Shown: positions 11,612 to 19,530 of the stretch, piece after piece
Layout of the letters: every line of letters begins with the position of its first letter
Numbering within the stretch: the stretch's first letter is position 1
DNA from: Candidatus Faecousia faecavium
GTDB taxonomy: Bacteria; Bacillota; Clostridia; Oscillospirales; Oscillospiraceae
Assembly: GCA_018712645.1 (NCBI GenBank)
Contig: DVGO01000056.1
Coordinates: 124,001-188,000, forward strand
Direction: 5' to 3'
DNA: 64,000 bases
Program-made: the position numbers and the translations under genes
Notes under the pieces: generated by a model
Database searches by the model: none
Seen by the model: only the letters and a program-made list of their open reading frames with translations
What the model was told of the DNA's origin: nothing

Positions 11612-11646
11612 TCAAAAAAGGAGCGGTACTGTTTTGCAGTACCGCT
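11612..11646 (-). terminator. Terminator of the Rnf-like operon
   Basis: Minus-strand stem AGCGGTACTG/CAGTACCGCT with a five-base loop, followed by CCTTTTTTG, directly downstream of the 145-aa membrane protein gene. Confidence 0.85.
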
Positions 11647-11687: not shown

Positions 11688-12125
11688 TCACAGCAGCATG
11701 CCGGCAAAGCACTGGCCTGCCAGCATCAGTCCCAGGCCGGTGGCGAGAATCGCCAGCTTTCCCTTGGGGCCGGAGGCAATGCGCTGCACCAGGGAGCTGA
11801 AAATCCGCTCCGCGACAGCAAAGATCAGTCCTCCTGCCAGCGCCAGCTGCCAGATCTGCCAGGCAGGGATTTCTCCCGCCACCCAGGGCAGAATGCCGAA
11901 GGTAATGGCAGCCAGAATATCCGCCTGAATCCAGCAGTATTCTGCCTGAGGCGCAAGATAGGCATTCAGAATCAGCGCCAGAACGCTCAGGATCAGAAGA
12001 TTGGGGATGTTCAGCGGAGGCAGTACCACCGCAGGCTGGAAGGTTCTGCACAGCATGTACACCAGCATGGTCAGAGCAACCACGGCGCACAGCAGAATAT
12101 TCAACATTCCGGATTGTTTCTTCAT
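11688..12125 (-). CDS. Small four-cysteine membrane protein of the Rnf-like operon
   Basis: 145 aa with four to five hydrophobic helices. It has four cysteines (about residues 13, 26, 64 and 139), all in or near membrane segments. It begins three bases after rnfG and is the last gene before the terminator, the place where rnfE or rnfA sits in full Rnf operons. It is too short for RnfA/RnfE (about 190-200 aa, six helices) and I do not see their conserved motifs. The four cysteines could hold an intramembrane iron-sulfur cluster, as the RnfA/RnfE pair does. That is inference. No named family recognised. Confidence 0.72.
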   Translation of the reverse strand: MKKQSGMLNILLCAVVALTMLVYMLCRTFQPAVVLPPLNIPNLLILSVLALILNAYLAPQAEYCWIQADILAAITFGILPWVAGEIPAWQIWQLALAGGLIFAVAERIFSSLVQRIASGPKGKLAILATGLGLMLAGQCFAGMLL

Positions 12126-12128
12126 GGC

Positions 12129-12668
12129 TTAACCTCCCCAGGATGTGGCGCCGGAGGAAGTATCCGCGCCGGTGACAAAGCCTACGGCTGCATTCACGCC
12201 TCTGGCAATGGCTTTGGAGGTAACAGTGGCACCAGTCAGAGCGTCCACGCCCTCACCGATCTGGGCATCGCCCTGGGTTCCCAGGAACTGGATCAGAAAA
12301 TCCGTATCCAGCAGCGCCTGTGCGCCCAGTCCCAGGGTTTCCTCCATGTCCCGTACCGTCAGGCCGGTGACTTTACCGCTGTTGTCCACGCCTACCAGCA
12401 GATAGATATCTCCGGCATATCCGGCGGTTTTGGTTTCCAGGACATAGCCGGTTTCTCCCTTGTAAACCGCCACAATGGCTTCATCCTCGCCGGTGTAGAC
12501 TTCCTGAGTAAAGGTGGTGCTTTCCGGCAGCATGAAGCGGATCATTTCCTTCTTCTCCGCAGCGGCAATCTCATTTGCCACCCCGGACAGGCCAAACCGT
12601 GCACCTGCCAGTACTGCGGCAGATACCACAATGGCAGCCAGGGCCGTCAGAATCTGTTTTACTTTCAT
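12129..12668 (-). CDS. rnfG: RnfG-like FMN-binding protein
   Basis: 179 aa, typical RnfG size. One N-terminal membrane helix, then the FMN-binding domain with GLTVRDMEETLGLG and the flavinylation motif DALTGATVTSKAI, in which the second Thr (GATVT) is the expected site for covalent FMN attached by ApbE. The domain faces outward. The start overlaps the rnfD stop by four bases. It should pass electrons on the outer face of the membrane together with RnfD. Confidence 0.9.
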   Translation of the reverse strand: MKVKQILTALAAIVVSAAVLAGARFGLSGVANEIAAAEKKEMIRFMLPESTTFTQEVYTGEDEAIVAVYKGETGYVLETKTAGYAGDIYLLVGVDNSGKVTGLTVRDMEETLGLGAQALLDTDFLIQFLGTQGDAQIGEGVDALTGATVTSKAIARGVNAAVGFVTGADTSSGATSWGG

Positions 12669-13621
12669 GCGGCACCTCCTTTGCTGCCGAAGCGGACAGG
12701 TGCCGTCCAGCGATCCATTGCCCAGGACAGGGCATTCATAATCAAAATGGCATAGGTGACGCCTTCCGGGAACAGGCCGAAGTAACGAAACAGCACCGTC
12801 AATGCGCCACAGCCAATGCCGTAGAGAATCTGTCCCTTGGGGGTAACCGGAGAGGTGGCATAGTCGGTGGCCATGAAGATGGCGCCCAGGATCACGCCGC
12901 CGCCCAGCAGGCTGTACATCATCCAGCCGAAGGCATCATCGGTCTTGTGGAACACCAGGGTCAGCACCGCCACGGTTCCCAGATACGCCACGGGAATCCG
13001 CAGGGAGATCACCTTCCGCCAAACCAGGTAAGCACCCCCCAGCAGCAGTGCCAGGGCAGAAACCTCACCAATGGAGCCGGGGATGTTACCCAGGAACATA
13101 TCCAGCAGGCTCTGCTCCGGCAGAGCGGGCATCACCATGTGGTGCAGAGGGGTTGCGGTGGTTACTGCATCCATGCCGCCGAAGAAGCCGTTGACTGCGG
13201 CGTAGCGCACCATGGAGGTGGGAAAGAGCAGCACCAGCAGAGCTCTTGCCGCCAGGGCAGGGTTAAAGGCGTTCTGGCCCATACCGCCGCAGAAGGCTTT
13301 CACCACCAGGATGGCAAACACGCTGCCAAAGGCGGCAACCCAGTAAGGCACGGTAGCAGGCAGGGTCATTGCCAGCAGCATGCCGGTGACCACTGCGGAG
13401 CCATCCAGCTCCCGATGGTCCCGGAAGAGAAAGCGGTTGGCAGCCAGTTCCGTAATCACAGCCGCCGCAATGGAAACGATGGTCACCACCGCAGCCCGGA
13501 TGCCGAAATGGGCAATACCGAAAACCAGCGCCGGTAGCAGGGCAATATTCACATCCCGCATAATCCGGCGGGTGGAGTCATTTCCCCGAACGTGGGGGGA
13601 AGAAGATACCGTCAAATTCAT
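12665..13621 (-). CDS. rnfD: RnfD-like flavinylated membrane subunit
   Basis: 318 aa from ATG 13621, which overlaps the rnfC stop as ATGA and has GGGAGG nine bases upstream; the track's longer start is wrong. About nine to ten membrane helices. FGSVFAILVVKAFCGGMGQNAFNPA is characteristic of the NqrB/RnfD family, and AVTTATPLHH is the flavin-attachment motif, with T in place of the usual G of SGATPL. It should carry covalent FMN and possibly riboflavin, and moves electrons within or across the membrane. Confidence 0.9.
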   Translation of the reverse strand: MNLTVSSSPHVRGNDSTRRIMRDVNIALLPALVFGIAHFGIRAAVVTIVSIAAAVITELAANRFLFRDHRELDGSAVVTGMLLAMTLPATVPYWVAAFGSVFAILVVKAFCGGMGQNAFNPALAARALLVLLFPTSMVRYAAVNGFFGGMDAVTTATPLHHMVMPALPEQSLLDMFLGNIPGSIGEVSALALLLGGAYLVWRKVISLRIPVAYLGTVAVLTLVFHKTDDAFGWMMYSLLGGGVILGAIFMATDYATSPVTPKGQILYGIGCGALTVLFRYFGLFPEGVTYAILIMNALSWAMDRWTAPVRFGSKGGAA

Positions 13622-14922
13622 TTGCCAGCAGCCTCCCTTACTTTGGATTTTCCCTTGCGGATCACTTCCACCAGAGGAAGTTTCCCCGGGCAGGTATAGG
13701 CACAGCAGCCGCACTCAATGCAGTCCATGACATAGTAGCGGTTCAGCTCTGCGGTATTGTCCCGATACCGGTACAGATACAACGGCTGCAGGTGCATGGG
13801 ACAAACCTGCACACACCGTCCGCAGCGGATGCACAGAGGATTCTCTTTTTCCTGGTTGCGGAACTGAGCCAGGCACAGCACAGAGTTGGTGCCCTTGATG
13901 GTCACCACGGACAGATCATCCTGAGCAAAGCCCATCATGGGGCCGCCGCAGATGACCTTCCACACATCTTCCGTCAGGCCGCCGGCAGCTTCGATCAGTT
14001 CCTGATAAGACGTACCAATGCGGCACAGGAAGTTCTTGGGATTTTTCACAGCCTCGCCGGTTACGGTGACAATTCGCTCGGTCACAGCCTGACCCAGGCA
14101 CACCGCCCGGTAGACCGCATAGAACGTTGCGGCGTTGAACACGGCGCACTGGACGGAGGAAGGCAGCTGTCCCGGAGGAATCTGCCGTCCGGTAACCGCC
14201 TGAATCAACTGCTTTTCCGCACCCTGGGGATAACGGGTAGGCAGAACCTGAATCTCTACATCGTCCTTGCCTGCCAGGGTCTGTTTCAGTGCTTCCACAG
14301 CCTTGGGCTTGTTATCTTCAATCGCCAGCACCACCCGGTCGGGGTTCAGGATTTTGGTGACGATGCGCATGCCTTCCAGTACTTGCTCCGGGCTGGTACG
14401 CAGCAGGATGTCGTCAGCAGTGATGTAAGGCTCACACTCGCAGGCATTGGCAATCAGGGTGTCGATTTTACCCAGGCTGGTCAAAGCCTTCATGTTGGAG
14501 GGGAAGGCTGCGCCGCCGTGGCCTACCACACCGGCTTCCCGGATGATGGCAAGCAGGGTATCCACATCCAAGCCGGAATAATCCGGATGGGGCACCAGGG
14601 TGGTGTCCGGGGTATCCAGGCCGTCGTTTTCAATCACCACGGACAGGATGTCCCGTCCGCTGGGATGGCGGCGAGGTTCCACGGCAATGACCTTGCCGGA
14701 GACAGAGGCATGGACAGGCACACACAGTCCCTGACCGTCGCCAATCTTCTGCCCTTTCTTGACCAGATCTCCCACCTGCACCAGCGGGGTACAGGGGGCG
14801 CCAATGTGCTGCTGCATGGCAATGGCAACAGTCTTGGGCTGAAAAGCGGTGTCCAGCTGGGCGTTGGAGGAAAGCTCCTTCCGTCCCGCCGGATGCAGGC
14901 CGCCAAAGAAAAGATGTTTCAT
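13618..14922 (-). CDS. rnfC: RnfC-like iron-sulfur/NADH-binding subunit
   Basis: 434 aa, the compact Firmicutes form. Residues 1-110 are a biotinyl-lipoyl-like domain (VQVGDLVKKGQKIG), followed by an FMN/NADH-binding domain (VGHGGAAFPSNMK) and a SLBB-like region. Two 4Fe-4S motifs close the protein: CIRCGRCVQVCP and CIECGCCAYTCP. In full Rnf complexes RnfC takes or gives electrons to NADH on the cytosolic side and works with RnfB, which is absent here. Start ATG 14922. Confidence 0.92.
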   Translation of the reverse strand: MKHLFFGGLHPAGRKELSSNAQLDTAFQPKTVAIAMQQHIGAPCTPLVQVGDLVKKGQKIGDGQGLCVPVHASVSGKVIAVEPRRHPSGRDILSVVIENDGLDTPDTTLVPHPDYSGLDVDTLLAIIREAGVVGHGGAAFPSNMKALTSLGKIDTLIANACECEPYITADDILLRTSPEQVLEGMRIVTKILNPDRVVLAIEDNKPKAVEALKQTLAGKDDVEIQVLPTRYPQGAEKQLIQAVTGRQIPPGQLPSSVQCAVFNAATFYAVYRAVCLGQAVTERIVTVTGEAVKNPKNFLCRIGTSYQELIEAAGGLTEDVWKVICGGPMMGFAQDDLSVVTIKGTNSVLCLAQFRNQEKENPLCIRCGRCVQVCPMHLQPLYLYRYRDNTAELNRYYVMDCIECGCCAYTCPGKLPLVEVIRKGKSKVREAAGK

Positions 14923-14942: not shown

Positions 14943-15971
14943 TTAGGTTCGGATATAGTCTTCAAAACCGGGACTATAGGTAATGATCCCGTCCTGGGCA
15001 ACCCACATGGCCAGAGCCTGGGTTTTGTCCAGCAGTGCCTGTCCCTGCTCCTGATCCAGCAAAAACAGCGCCGTGGACAGGCAGTCAGCCAGGCCGGAAT
15101 CCGGGCAAAGAATGGTCACAGAGCGCCAGTAGTTTGCCGGCATCCGGGTTTCCGGGTCGATGATGTGGTGATAGGATTTTCCGTCCACCACATAGTAGCG
15201 CTGATAGTCACCGCTGGTGACCACACTGCCGTCAGAAATATTCAGGGTGTGCAGGTAACCTGCATCCCATTTCTCCGGGGACTGGACTCCCACCACCCAC
15301 TGGGCGCCGGTTGCCTTGGGGCCGGTGGCACAGACGTTTCCGCCGATGCTAACCAGCATTCCCTCTTCAATCTGGGCACAGACCTGCTGGGCAGACCAGC
15401 CTTTGGCCACTGCGCCCACATCCAATTGCATGTCCGGGTCCGCCAGGAACACGGTGCCCGCTTCTTCGTCCACGATCACATCGTCCAGATTGCAATGGGC
15501 AGAAGCTTCTTCCAGCGCTGCCTCGTCCGGCAGGGCGGCGTGCTCCGGATCGTCAATCCCTGCCGTCCGGGCATCGTGCCACAGCTTTAGTACGCTGCCC
15601 ATGGCAACATTGACTTTTCCATCGGTCAGGGCGTAGTACTCCTTGCACTCCAGCAGCAGATCCACAATCCGCTGGTCTACCGCCACCGGGGCAACGCCTG
15701 CCTGATCGTTGATGGTTTTCAGGTTGGCAATGCCTTCGTAATCGTTATAGATGTCGAACAGCTGGTGATATTCCAGCAGCTGGTCATGGATTGCCTGGGC
15801 CTTCTCCTGAAATGCTTCCTCCGATTCGGCATACCCCAAAATGGTGGTCACCGTATCAAACAGGGTCAGAAACGTGGCCTGATACTGGGTTGGCCCCTCC
15901 GTTTGGGCGGGGGATGCACAGCCTGTCAGCAGGCAGGCAAGACACACAAAGCAAATCAGGATTCGCCGCAT
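14943..15971 (-). CDS. apbE: ApbE-type FAD:protein FMN transferase (lipoprotein)
   Basis: 342 aa. Signal peptide with lipobox LLTGC. ApbE motifs in order: DVGAVAKGWSAQQV, SIGGNVCATG, the substrate/metal segment HHIIDPETRMPAN, and ADCLSTALFLL. The enzyme cuts FAD and attaches FMN to Thr in the DxxTGATx[TS] motif of exported proteins. The direct targets here are RnfG and RnfD, which follow in the same operon. It is 20 bases upstream of rnfC. Confidence 0.93.
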   Translation of the reverse strand: MRRILICFVCLACLLTGCASPAQTEGPTQYQATFLTLFDTVTTILGYAESEEAFQEKAQAIHDQLLEYHQLFDIYNDYEGIANLKTINDQAGVAPVAVDQRIVDLLLECKEYYALTDGKVNVAMGSVLKLWHDARTAGIDDPEHAALPDEAALEEASAHCNLDDVIVDEEAGTVFLADPDMQLDVGAVAKGWSAQQVCAQIEEGMLVSIGGNVCATGPKATGAQWVVGVQSPEKWDAGYLHTLNISDGSVVTSGDYQRYYVVDGKSYHHIIDPETRMPANYWRSVTILCPDSGLADCLSTALFLLDQEQGQALLDKTQALAMWVAQDGIITYSPGFEDYIRT

Positions 15972-16000: not shown

Positions 16001-17089
16001 TTAACCGGCAGCCTTGGCAATCAGGGCCTGGAAGCCGCCCACAGCGATGGTCACAGAGGCAGCCAGATCCGCTTCGGTAACCTTGCTGCTCTCATCCACG
16101 GCAATGCCGCTCACTTCCTCAGCGGTCTTGCCGGTAACGTAAGCAGCAAAGGAAGCAGCCTGCTCGTTCCATTCGTAGGTGCTGCCGGCGTAAGCCTTCA
16201 TGCCGTAAGCTTCGCCCAGCTGGTTCTTGGTCTGGGGAGCAGCAGTCAGGTCGGTGGTAATCTTGCCGGTGGCATCAAAGCTGACCTTGGCCTGCAGGCC
16301 ATCCAGGATGCAGCTGGTGATGGTATCGCCGTTCATGGTCAGGGCGGTGACGTTCACATCCAGCTGAGCGGTGCCGTCCTTTTCGGCCTCAGCATTGACG
16401 CTGCTGTCCAGGCCGTTGAGGGTGCTCAGCACCAGCTTGTCGCCTCTGTGGGCGCCCAGATGGGTGGCAGTCTCGGCAGCCATGGCAATGGCATCCACAT
16501 AGCCGCCAATGTAAATGGTAGCAACAGAAGCCAGGTCGGCGTCGGCAGCCTTACCGGATTCGTTGACAGCGCCGGTCTTCAGCTCCTGGGCAGTCTTGCC
16601 CACGGCGTAATCCGCCAGAGCCTGGGCTTGCTCGTTCCACTCGTAAGCGCTGCCGGCATAGGCCTTCATGCCGTAAGCTTCACCCAGCTCGTTCTTGGTC
16701 TGGGGAGCGGCGGTCAGGTCGGTGGTGATGACACCCTTGGTATCAAATTCCACAGTGGACTTGATTCCGTCGATGGCGCAGGAGTCAATGACACCGTTGT
16801 CATCCACATTAACCGCAACCAGGGTTACATCGTACACAGCGCTGCCGTTCTTATCAGCGGCGGCATCGGTGCTGTCAGCAATGCCCGTAACCACAGCCAG
16901 GCCGGTCTTGACAGCGTCGTCACTGCTTCCGGCGGTGGTAGCCTGAGGAACGGTGCTTTCGGTGCTCTGGGCAGGAGCAGCGGTGGCGATGGGCTGGGTG
17001 GGGCAGACGTGTACATGGGCGCCTGCACAGCCGCCCAGCAGGCTGACGGCCATAACAACAGTCAGCACCATGGCGAGAAACTTCTTCAT
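16001..17089 (-). CDS. Tandem-repeat lipoprotein heading the Rnf-like operon
   Basis: 362 aa. The signal peptide ends in the lipobox LLGGC, and the first mature residues include HVHVC, a possible metal site. After a Thr/Ser-rich linker come two homologous modules (about residues 65-200 and 225-360), each with TTDLTAAPQTKNxLGEAYGMKAYAG and YEWNEQA. The fold resembles a degenerate FMN-binding domain, but no SGAT flavinylation motif is present; that relation is inference. It is first in the operon with ApbE and RnfC/D/G and probably lies on the outer membrane face as a partner or sensor. Start ATG 17089, with GGAGGAATCCCC before it. Confidence 0.82.
   Translation of the reverse strand: MKKFLAMVLTVVMAVSLLGGCAGAHVHVCPTQPIATAAPAQSTESTVPQATTAGSSDDAVKTGLAVVTGIADSTDAAADKNGSAVYDVTLVAVNVDDNGVIDSCAIDGIKSTVEFDTKGVITTDLTAAPQTKNELGEAYGMKAYAGSAYEWNEQAQALADYAVGKTAQELKTGAVNESGKAADADLASVATIYIGGYVDAIAMAAETATHLGAHRGDKLVLSTLNGLDSSVNAEAEKDGTAQLDVNVTALTMNGDTITSCILDGLQAKVSFDATGKITTDLTAAPQTKNQLGEAYGMKAYAGSTYEWNEQAASFAAYVTGKTAEEVSGIAVDESSKVTEADLAASVTIAVGGFQALIAKAAG
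16161..16727 (-). repeat. Near-identical 99-bp direct repeats in the lipoprotein gene
   Basis: 16161-16259 and 16629-16727 are nearly the same at DNA level (offset 468 bp, 156 codons), while the rest of the two modules is more diverged. This points to a module duplication with later gene conversion, or to strong constraint on this segment. Confidence 0.75.
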
Positions 17090-17195: not shown

Positions 17196-18761
17196 TCACA
17201 GATTTTCCATACTCTCCGGTTCTTCCCTCTGTTTCCGTGGAATGGTCACCACAAAGGTTGTGCCAACACCCAAACGGCTGCTGACATCAATCTCTCCTTT
17301 GTGATCCTCTACCACCTGGGCTGCAATGGCAAGGCCCAATCCGGTGCCCTTCCCCTGCTCCTTTGTGGTGAAGAAGGGTTCAAAAATCCGGGAAATCACC
17401 TCCGGCGCAATGCCGGTGCCGGTATCGTTGACCGTAATCTGCACCGTTTCCTCCTGGGCCTGGGTGGAGATGGTCAGAGTTCCGCCCTTGGGCATTGCGT
17501 GAAAACCGTTGAGAATCAGGTTCAGCAGCAGCTGAGACAGCTGGATTTCATTGCCCAGAATGCACATATCCGGACAGTGCAGATCCGTCTGCACCGTGAT
17601 GGTTTTGCTCTGGGCCGGTTTTGCCACATGGAGGGCTTTCTGCACCAGTTCATCCGGAGAAAGGGGGCGAAAGACCGTTTCCGAATTTTTCCGGGACAGG
17701 TCGGAAAGTCGCTGAATCAGGGTTTTGGCTTTCAGAGAAGTATTGTAGATTTCCAGCACATCGTCATAGATATCCTCGTTTTCCGGAGGAAGCTTTTCCA
17801 GGGCCAGCATGCTGTAGCCCATAATGGGGACCAGCAGGTTGTTAAATTCATGGGCAATACTGGAGGTCAGGGTACCCATGATTTCCAGCCGCTGGTGGTG
17901 GGCCAGCTGTTGGGTTTTCTGATTCAGCGCTTCCATGGCGGCATTTTTTTGCTGCAGCAGTTCCAGATCCCGACGTCCCTGCTCGGTTTTCAGAATTGCC
18001 GCTGCTATCGAGGTGCATCCCGCCGCCAGCAGCATGCAGCACAAAAGCCCCATTGCCCCCGGTACCCACAGCATTCCCTCCGGGACGCTTCCCAGGATGC
18101 CGATGGTAAAATAGCCGTTTCCGGACAGTTCTGCCGGAATCACCCCCATCCAGGAATCCTCCCCCATAGTCGCAGAACGGGATTCTTCCTGATTTTCCAG
18201 CGCATCCCATACAGGATCATATTCCTGCTTCCGCGCCAGTTCCACCGCAATTCCGCCATCCCTGGGATGTATCAAGGCGCTGCCGGAGCGGTCCATCAGT
18301 ACCGCCTGATAGCTTTCATCTGCGGGTACACAGTCCCGATAAAAGGAAATCAGATCCAAAAGGATTCCCTTGGCCTCTCCTTCCGAGGAAACCCGCACCA
18401 CCGCCAGGTAGACCTCCCCGTTTTCCCCCAGGCAGGGCAGCACATTCATCCCCGGATTCCATTGGGCCTGGGGCGGCAGCTGATATTGTCTGCCGTCCTG
18501 ATCGGATGAGCTTCCCTGGGTATCCAACTCCATGGGAAATCCCCCGGTCCCCTGCTCCATCTGCGCAGTGTAGGGCATCAGCAGCTGATGAATCCGGCTG
18601 TCCATTTCCCATGCCTGAAGCAGCAGCTTTTCCTGAAACTGCTGCACATTCCGGGCTTTCTGCCCCGCTCCCAGCCAGATTCCCGCAGCCAGCCCCAGCA
18701 GCAGCAACCCGAACCCTAACAAGAAAAAAATCCGGTTCTTCCCGGAAAACACATTCTTCAT
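17196..18761 (-). CDS. Membrane sensor histidine kinase
   Basis: 521 aa from ATG 18761 (AAGGGGG six bases upstream); the track's start is an upstream TTG. First membrane helix near residues 8-30, an external sensor domain of about 200 residues, a second helix (VPGAMGLLCCMLLAAG), a coiled coil, the HisKA box SSIAHEFNNLLVPIMGY, then the ATPase domain with NLILNGFHAMP (N box), DTGTGIAPEV (G1), FEPFFTTKEQG (F) and GTGLGLAI (G2). Divergently transcribed from an OmpR-type regulator, its probable partner. The signal is unknown; it borders the redox operon. Confidence 0.9.
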   Translation of the reverse strand: MKNVFSGKNRIFFLLGFGLLLLGLAAGIWLGAGQKARNVQQFQEKLLLQAWEMDSRIHQLLMPYTAQMEQGTGGFPMELDTQGSSSDQDGRQYQLPPQAQWNPGMNVLPCLGENGEVYLAVVRVSSEGEAKGILLDLISFYRDCVPADESYQAVLMDRSGSALIHPRDGGIAVELARKQEYDPVWDALENQEESRSATMGEDSWMGVIPAELSGNGYFTIGILGSVPEGMLWVPGAMGLLCCMLLAAGCTSIAAAILKTEQGRRDLELLQQKNAAMEALNQKTQQLAHHQRLEIMGTLTSSIAHEFNNLLVPIMGYSMLALEKLPPENEDIYDDVLEIYNTSLKAKTLIQRLSDLSRKNSETVFRPLSPDELVQKALHVAKPAQSKTITVQTDLHCPDMCILGNEIQLSQLLLNLILNGFHAMPKGGTLTISTQAQEETVQITVNDTGTGIAPEVISRIFEPFFTTKEQGKGTGLGLAIAAQVVEDHKGEIDVSSRLGVGTTFVVTIPRKQREEPESMENL

Positions 18762-18772
18762 CCCGATCCCCC

Positions 18773-18801
18773 TTGTCAAATTCAGCCTCTTGCCTTATAC
18801 T
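18773..18801 (+). promoter_or_regulatory. Sigma-A promoter for the response regulator
   Basis: TTGTCA (18773-18778), 17 bases, TATACT (18796-18801). The -35 box overlaps the upstream edge of the kinase gene's ribosome binding region on the other strand. Confidence 0.65.
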
Positions 18802-18846
18802 ATCATCATAACCAAGTTGTGTAAATCTGTAAAGGGGTGAATTCCC

Positions 18847-19530
18847 ATGGAGGATATGGTGCTGATTGTGGATGACGACGAAGCCGTGCGCACCATGCTG
18901 TACAAAGCCATCCGCAGCAACGGAATCGAAGCCCAGCAGGTTTCCAGCGGCGAGCAGGCTCTGCAGTGGGTTTCCCGGAATCGGTGCGATCTGATTATCA
19001 TGGACATCAATATGCCGGGGATGGATGGATTCCAAGTGATCCAGACCCTGCGCAATCGGGGGCTGCGCATCCCCATTATGATCGTCAGCGGCCGTCAGGA
19101 AGACTACGACACCCTTTACGGTCTGGATATCGGAGCGGATGACTATGTGACCAAACCCTTTAATCCGGTGGTCTTGGGAGCCAAGGTCAAAGCGCTGCTT
19201 CGCCGGAGCAAGGCCAGTTCTTTTGGTGACAGCGCGGTCATTGTGGCCGGTCCTTTCCGCTATAACACCATCACCATGCGCTTTTACAAGGACAATCGGG
19301 AAATCTCCCTCTCTTCCAAGGAGCACGCCATGATGAAGCTGTTCCTGGACAACGTCAACCGGGTTTTCTCCAAGGATATGCTCTATACCCTGGTTTGGGG
19401 CGAAGCCATCATTGACGAAAACGCCATTATGGTCTACATCAACCGTCTGCGGCAAAAAATTGAGGAAAATCCCTCCAAGCCCCGCTACATTCAAACTGTC
19501 CGTGGACTGGGTTACCGATTTGTAGTATAA
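18847..19530 (+). CDS. OmpR/PhoB-family response regulator
   Basis: 227 aa. Receiver domain with the acidic pocket VDDDE, phosphorylation site in IIMDINMPGMDG, Thr/Ser switch in IVSGR and DYVTKPF. The C-terminal winged helix has LSSKEHAMMKLF, NAIMVYINRLRQKIE and YIQTVRGLGYRFV. Start ATG 18847 behind AAAGGGGTG. It likely answers to the divergent histidine kinase. A small dyad (GATAT-4-ATATC, 17121-17134) upstream of the redox operon could be a target site; that link is speculative. Confidence 0.93.
   Translation: MEDMVLIVDDDEAVRTMLYKAIRSNGIEAQQVSSGEQALQWVSRNRCDLIIMDINMPGMDGFQVIQTLRNRGLRIPIMIVSGRQEDYDTLYGLDIGADDYVTKPFNPVVLGAKVKALLRRSKASSFGDSAVIVAGPFRYNTITMRFYKDNREISLSSKEHAMMKLFLDNVNRVFSKDMLYTLVWGEAIIDENAIMVYINRLRQKIEENPSKPRYIQTVRGLGYRFVV

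Follow-up and report, generated by a model that had tools for sequence, protein, structure and literature searches.

A small membrane protein with remote similarity to RnfA accompanies a partial set of Rnf genes in gut Oscillospiraceae

Current understanding of Rnf is that of an ion pump with two paths. In the full complex (RnfCDGEAB), RnfC and the flavins of RnfD make up one path, which links NAD with the outer FMN of RnfG, and RnfB together with the RnfA/E cluster makes up the other (PMC12174285). One-way systems that resemble NQR and RNF and contain a single transmembrane path have been proposed to pass electrons from NAD(P)H to extracytosolic flavin; in these, RnfD/NqrB is fused to the NAD domain of NqrF and only two subunits are apparent (Meheust et al. 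2021; PMC8238504). Gram-positive extracellular electron transfer loci encode Ndh2, EetA, EetB, PplA and FmnB. In Listeria, EetB (PF07456) exports FAD for ApbE, and in 572 genomes of Clostridia, eetB has Rnf genes in its vicinity (PMC9973259). A literature search, with subscription papers mostly outside its scope, did not bring up any RnfC-D-G set described as having an additional subunit of the kind analyzed here.

In the window (the whole stretch of DNA that was analyzed, 64,000 nucleotides), part of Rnf is encoded in a minus-strand operon with the order, in the direction of transcription, lipoprotein, apbE, rnfC, rnfD, rnfG and a short membrane protein gene denoted X ('M145'), followed by a strong terminator. 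The first gene (16001..17089) encodes a lipoprotein with a lipobox and two tandem ~150-aa repeats, which occupies the PplA position; the second is apbE (14943..15971; PF02424, 2.5e-65), encoding a lipoprotein FAD:protein FMN transferase. The rnfC-type subunit (13618..14922; TIGR01945, 1.8e-146, along with Pfam domains) contains an NADH/FMN domain and two CxxCxxCxxxCP cluster motifs; the rnfD-type subunit (12665..13636; PF03116, 2e-110; TIGR01946, 1e-86) carries the FMN-threonine motif TTATPL; and the 179-aa rnfG-type FMN-binding subunit (12129..12668; PF04205, 2.6e-16; TIGR01947, 4.9e-20) carries the flavinylation motif DALTGATVT. The operon thus shares with the RNF complex RnfC, RnfD and RnfG, with the cofactor motifs of all three intact (TGAT in RnfG, ATPL in RnfD), but lacks rnfA, rnfE and rnfB, which are also missing from the related X loci examined, and encodes only the RnfC/RnfD/RnfG path. 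In this retention of a single transmembrane path of the two, it resembles the NQR/RNF-like systems. In contrast to the latter, a separate RnfC brings NADH, the 323-aa RnfD matches PF03116 only, with no fused NqrF NAD domain (PF00175), and there is an extra subunit, X.

The X gene (11688..12125, minus strand) starts with ATG, downstream of a ribosome-binding site (GGGGAGG) that overlaps the final codons of rnfG, and an intrinsic terminator with a 10-bp stem, a 5-nt loop and a T-run (11622..11646, minus strand) lies immediately 3' of it. Because the reading frame is kept at 27-44% identity in homologs from many genomes, X is a real gene. A sequence-only reading of this region had described a 145-aa protein with four to five hydrophobic helices and four cysteines at the end of the rnfC-rnfD-rnfG cluster, and this description is borne out by the ORF, by the cysteines at positions 13, 26, 64 and 139 and by the place of X as the last gene before the terminator. 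The AlphaFold2 model, built from 26 homologs (mean pLDDT 82), predicts five helices, at residues 7-29, 40-57, 65-82, 88-116 and 122-144. The conserved residues are Pro31, Pro36, Pro80, Arg115, Gly119, Ala136 and Gln138. Against Pfam and NCBIfam, X has no family match above the cut-off, and searches of PDB sequences with X profiles gave chance matches only (RnfD at E=0.98, homoserine kinase at 0.08).

The gene is confined to one bacterial family. Of 60 relatives, 14 carry X, which was also detected in 25 named loci, mostly titled as Oscillospiraceae MAGs from animal guts; a profile search of the family yielded matches in 22 of 301 genomes, one of which is really RnfA. In total, 51 distinct sequences were collected from nine genera, all in the Oscillospiraceae, and a search of 391 genomes spanning the class turned up no true member outside the family. 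On every contig long enough to show it, the gene order lipoprotein-apbE-rnfC-rnfD-rnfG-X is preserved, and this holds in all nine genera. The RnfD proteins of the X loci form a separate clade with 100/100 support, distinct from that of the RNF complex; the lone sequence labeled 'canonical' inside this clade is the copy from the window itself, retrieved as L003. In the class-wide RnfD sample of 390 genomes, the X-locus RnfD scored 580 bits against at most 413 elsewhere, and the search revealed no second lineage and no intermediate. Judged from its sequences and gene neighborhoods, X accompanies a putative half-sized Rnf complex in Oscillospiraceae gut bacteria as a conserved partner specific to this lineage.

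Each of two genomes from other families (G554 and G511) has two high-scoring RnfD genes, possibly representing further partial or duplicate Rnf sets.

In the sequence-only reading, the four cysteines were proposed to bind one iron-sulfur cluster of the RnfA/RnfE type, such that X would replace this pair as the transmembrane electron path. In the window protein, the cysteines are indeed placed close to helix ends, and the operon lacks both rnfA and rnfE. However, the alignment of homologs shows that the four cysteines are not invariant: among the 51 X sequences, Cys13 is present in 4, Cys26 in 5, Cys64 in 31 and Cys139 in 27, and no sequence other than the window protein and its three near-identical copies has the complete set. 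In ten of the 51 homologs, all four are missing, and the total number of cysteines per homolog ranges from 1 to 9. Moreover, in the AlphaFold2 model, C13 and C26 belong to the same continuous helix (7-29), 13 residues apart, which at 1.5 Å per residue would put them about 20 Å from each other, a predicted spacing that rules out a single cluster held by all four cysteines. There is also no RnfB in the locus from which such a cluster could receive electrons, and no RnfB exceeds the cut-off anywhere in two carrier genomes that are nearly complete. The proposal thus fails on both conservation and geometry, and we consider it extremely improbable. Given that its cysteines are not conserved, X probably holds no iron-sulfur cluster. 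Indeed, no histidine, acidic residue or cysteine is conserved across the 51 sequences, so there is no apparent redox or heme ligand; a cytochrome reading of X was likewise rejected, the best histidine column being at most 53% conserved.

The other part of that early proposal, that X stands in the position of RnfA/RnfE, gains support from profile comparison, from genome searches in both directions and from membrane topology. As rnfE and rnfA do, X follows rnfG. The hhalign comparison of X with RnfA (PF02508, RnfA/NqrE) gave a score of 36.4 (probability ~70%), with the confident part limited to the C-terminal 58 columns; in a block-shuffle control for RnfA, the mean score was 16.8 (sd 3.7, maximum 32.1), and none of the 200 shuffles reached 36.4. 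The score against RnfE (18.9) was matched by 11 of 200 shuffles, and that against RnfD was 24.2. With a combined RnfA and RnfE profile, 134 columns were aligned with X, yet 2 of the 200 shuffles scored higher than the real profile. In whole-genome searches of the family and the class, where off-family matches were counted below 1e-3, the X profiles produced only three matches to non-members, one of them an antisense ORF and the other two RnfA proteins (G166, 3.3e-4; G508, 3.5e-4). In the reverse direction, the sole match of PF02508 in the genome G001 is X itself, over the last 52 model positions (E=0.19, 12 bits versus a cut-off of 23.8). None of the X members exceeds the PF02508 cut-off, and only one of 27 appears at all, at E=0.49; X is not a member of PF02508 by the usual criteria.

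The predicted topology is compatible with this similarity. RnfA has six helices in an N-out/C-out arrangement, with positive loops 1, 3 and 5, and its topology and that of RnfE are mutually inverted (PMC12174285). In X, loops 2 and 4 are positive, and this charge pattern predicts an N-in/C-out orientation, which is that of RnfA helices 2-6. Compared to RnfA (~190 aa), X is shorter, lacks helix 1 and has no RnfE or RnfB partner in its locus. The cluster cysteines of RnfA (C26 and C113) and RnfE (C25 and C108) are 100% conserved. In X, the first helix, which carries Cys26 in RnfA, is missing, and Cys113 aligns to Ala73, a site occupied by Ala, Leu or Val across the X family. A Foldseek search with the X model against 350,542 PDB chains returned nothing significant, with RnfA/NqrD chains at ranks 3, 6, 9, 14 and 28, and no intermediate between full-length RnfA and X was found. 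Taken as a whole, these comparisons make it likely, although not proven, that X is remotely related to RnfA by common descent. The same data have to be weighed against the possibility that X is an unrelated, lineage-specific small subunit that stabilizes or docks an RnfC-D-G export complex and resembles RnfA by chance. The lack of any family-level match, the lack of a significant fold match and the profile score, which is marginal in the N-terminal half, all fit that explanation. Against it, the whole-genome matches point to RnfA in both directions, the topology and the C-terminal register agree with RnfA, and the shuffled profiles fall short of the X-RnfA score, so we regard chance resemblance as unlikely, while granting it more weight than any other alternative discussed here.

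The operon is not the only Rnf locus in its genome. The same assembly contains a complete canonical rnfC-D-G-E-A-B operon on another contig (L017:4220-9230; G000 contig C67), so the window operon is a second, partial Rnf set, and its earlier description as lacking RnfA and RnfE is accurate for the operon but not for the genome. RnfA/RnfE genes (PF02508 over the cut-off) are present elsewhere in the genome in 28 of 33 X carriers, which is what would be expected if RnfC-D-G-X joined RnfA, RnfE and RnfB encoded at a distance and X modified an alternative full Rnf pump. However, two carriers, G001 (99% complete) and G281 (95%), possess the operon and have no RnfA/RnfE and no RnfB over the cut-off genome-wide, so the half-complex need not borrow these subunits and, at least in these two organisms, must work alone. 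The distinct clade of the operon's RnfD also argues against assembly into the full pump. We therefore consider this explanation quite improbable, even though subunits may be shared with a full RnfA/E pair in most carriers, given that 28 of the 33 own one.

The lipoprotein and apbE connect the X loci with extracellular electron transfer. In almost all of the Clostridia loci examined (L159-L178), a gene of this lipoprotein family, with its tandem ~150-aa repeats, stands next to apbE, and within this set, the loci L160-L165 additionally encode an Ndh2-like flavoprotein, a UbiA prenyltransferase, a NusG_II protein and PF07456. By its gene content, this arrangement corresponds to that of extracellular electron transfer in Gram-positive bacteria. 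The X loci share with it the lipoprotein followed by ApbE and, often, upstream genes for NusG_II (EetA-like) and PF07456 (EetB): one or both are directly upstream of the lipoprotein in 14 X loci (L019, L030, L060, L062, L067, L070, L072, L073, L078, L079, L084 and L089-L091). In the window itself, neither gene is present upstream of the operon. The X loci differ in that the Ndh2 and quinone genes are absent, with rnfC-D-G-X present instead, and in that the lipoprotein does not contain the usual [ST]GA[ST] flavinylation motif (canonical SGAT). The lipoprotein profile matches PDB 2kzx at 1.3e-5, and 2kzx has SGATI where the lipoprotein family has ASVTI, which suggests that Thr191 and Thr347 may be non-canonical flavinylation sites; a Foldseek search with the lipoprotein model gave nothing usable. 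One locus (L085:9073-11121) has an operon lipoprotein of 683 aa, about twice the usual length, which contains 15 cysteines.

The neighborhood also brings up a role for X in cofactor supply, either as an exporter of FAD that resembles EetB and serves ApbE or as an NqrM-like iron-sulfur maturation factor. The size of X, the adjoining apbE and the occurrence of EetB in loci of this kind (PMC9973259) would be in line with such a role. Yet, a true EetB (PF07456) is already encoded upstream in the 14 X loci, none of 27 X members matches PF07456, and the hhalign score for EetB is 20.6 (P 2.5%) compared to 36.4 for RnfA, so that EetB or another transporter was rejected as the identity of X. NqrM was rejected as well, there being no NqrM-type match in Pfam or NCBIfam and no conserved cysteine. 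Cofactor supply by X is, accordingly, very unlikely.

What remains is a picture of a conserved, lineage-restricted half-Rnf with an RnfA-like subunit stripped of redox ligands, that is, a predicted variant of a known system. The explanation to which we lean, by a little over even chances, is that the operon encodes half of Rnf, repurposed for the one-way export of electrons, in which X is a structural subunit derived from RnfA and free of any cluster. Under this model, electrons from NADH would enter the FMN and the two [4Fe-4S] clusters of RnfC, pass via the RnfD flavins to the FMN bound covalently to RnfG on the outer side of the membrane, and then reach the surface lipoprotein, the product of the first gene of the operon, which is probably flavinylated by the adjoining ApbE and would hand them on to an extracellular acceptor. 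This route is proposed because the lipoprotein-apbE pair and the EetA/EetB genes are common to extracellular electron transfer loci. In its descent from RnfA, X would have lost the first helix and both cluster cysteines while keeping helices 2-6 and their orientation, and its role would be structural rather than redox: X would fill the RnfA/E site and hold the RnfG helix beside RnfD. The direction of electron flow, the lipoprotein as acceptor and the structural role of X are inferred, with function read from gene order. On a more specific and more tentative version, to which we give somewhat less than even chances, rnfC-D-G-X would stand in place of Ndh2 and quinone, such that a hybrid exporter composed of RnfC-D-G and a cluster-less RnfA remnant replaces the Ndh2/quinone step and NADH is oxidized directly to a surface flavo-lipoprotein without RnfA, RnfE or RnfB.

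If this model is true, a natural complex reduced to the NADH-side path and devoid of the intramembrane iron-sulfur centre would offer a direct test both of which half of Rnf pumps ions and of how RnfG chooses its partner. Gut Oscillospiraceae would then have a quinone-independent route to dump NADH electrons outside the cell, with this disposal of NADH linked to the machinery of flavin-based extracellular electron transfer.

Immediately upstream of the operon, the window encodes a sensor kinase on the minus strand, followed farther out by a divergently oriented gene for an OmpR-type response regulator (17196-19530); regulation of the operon by this pair is possible.
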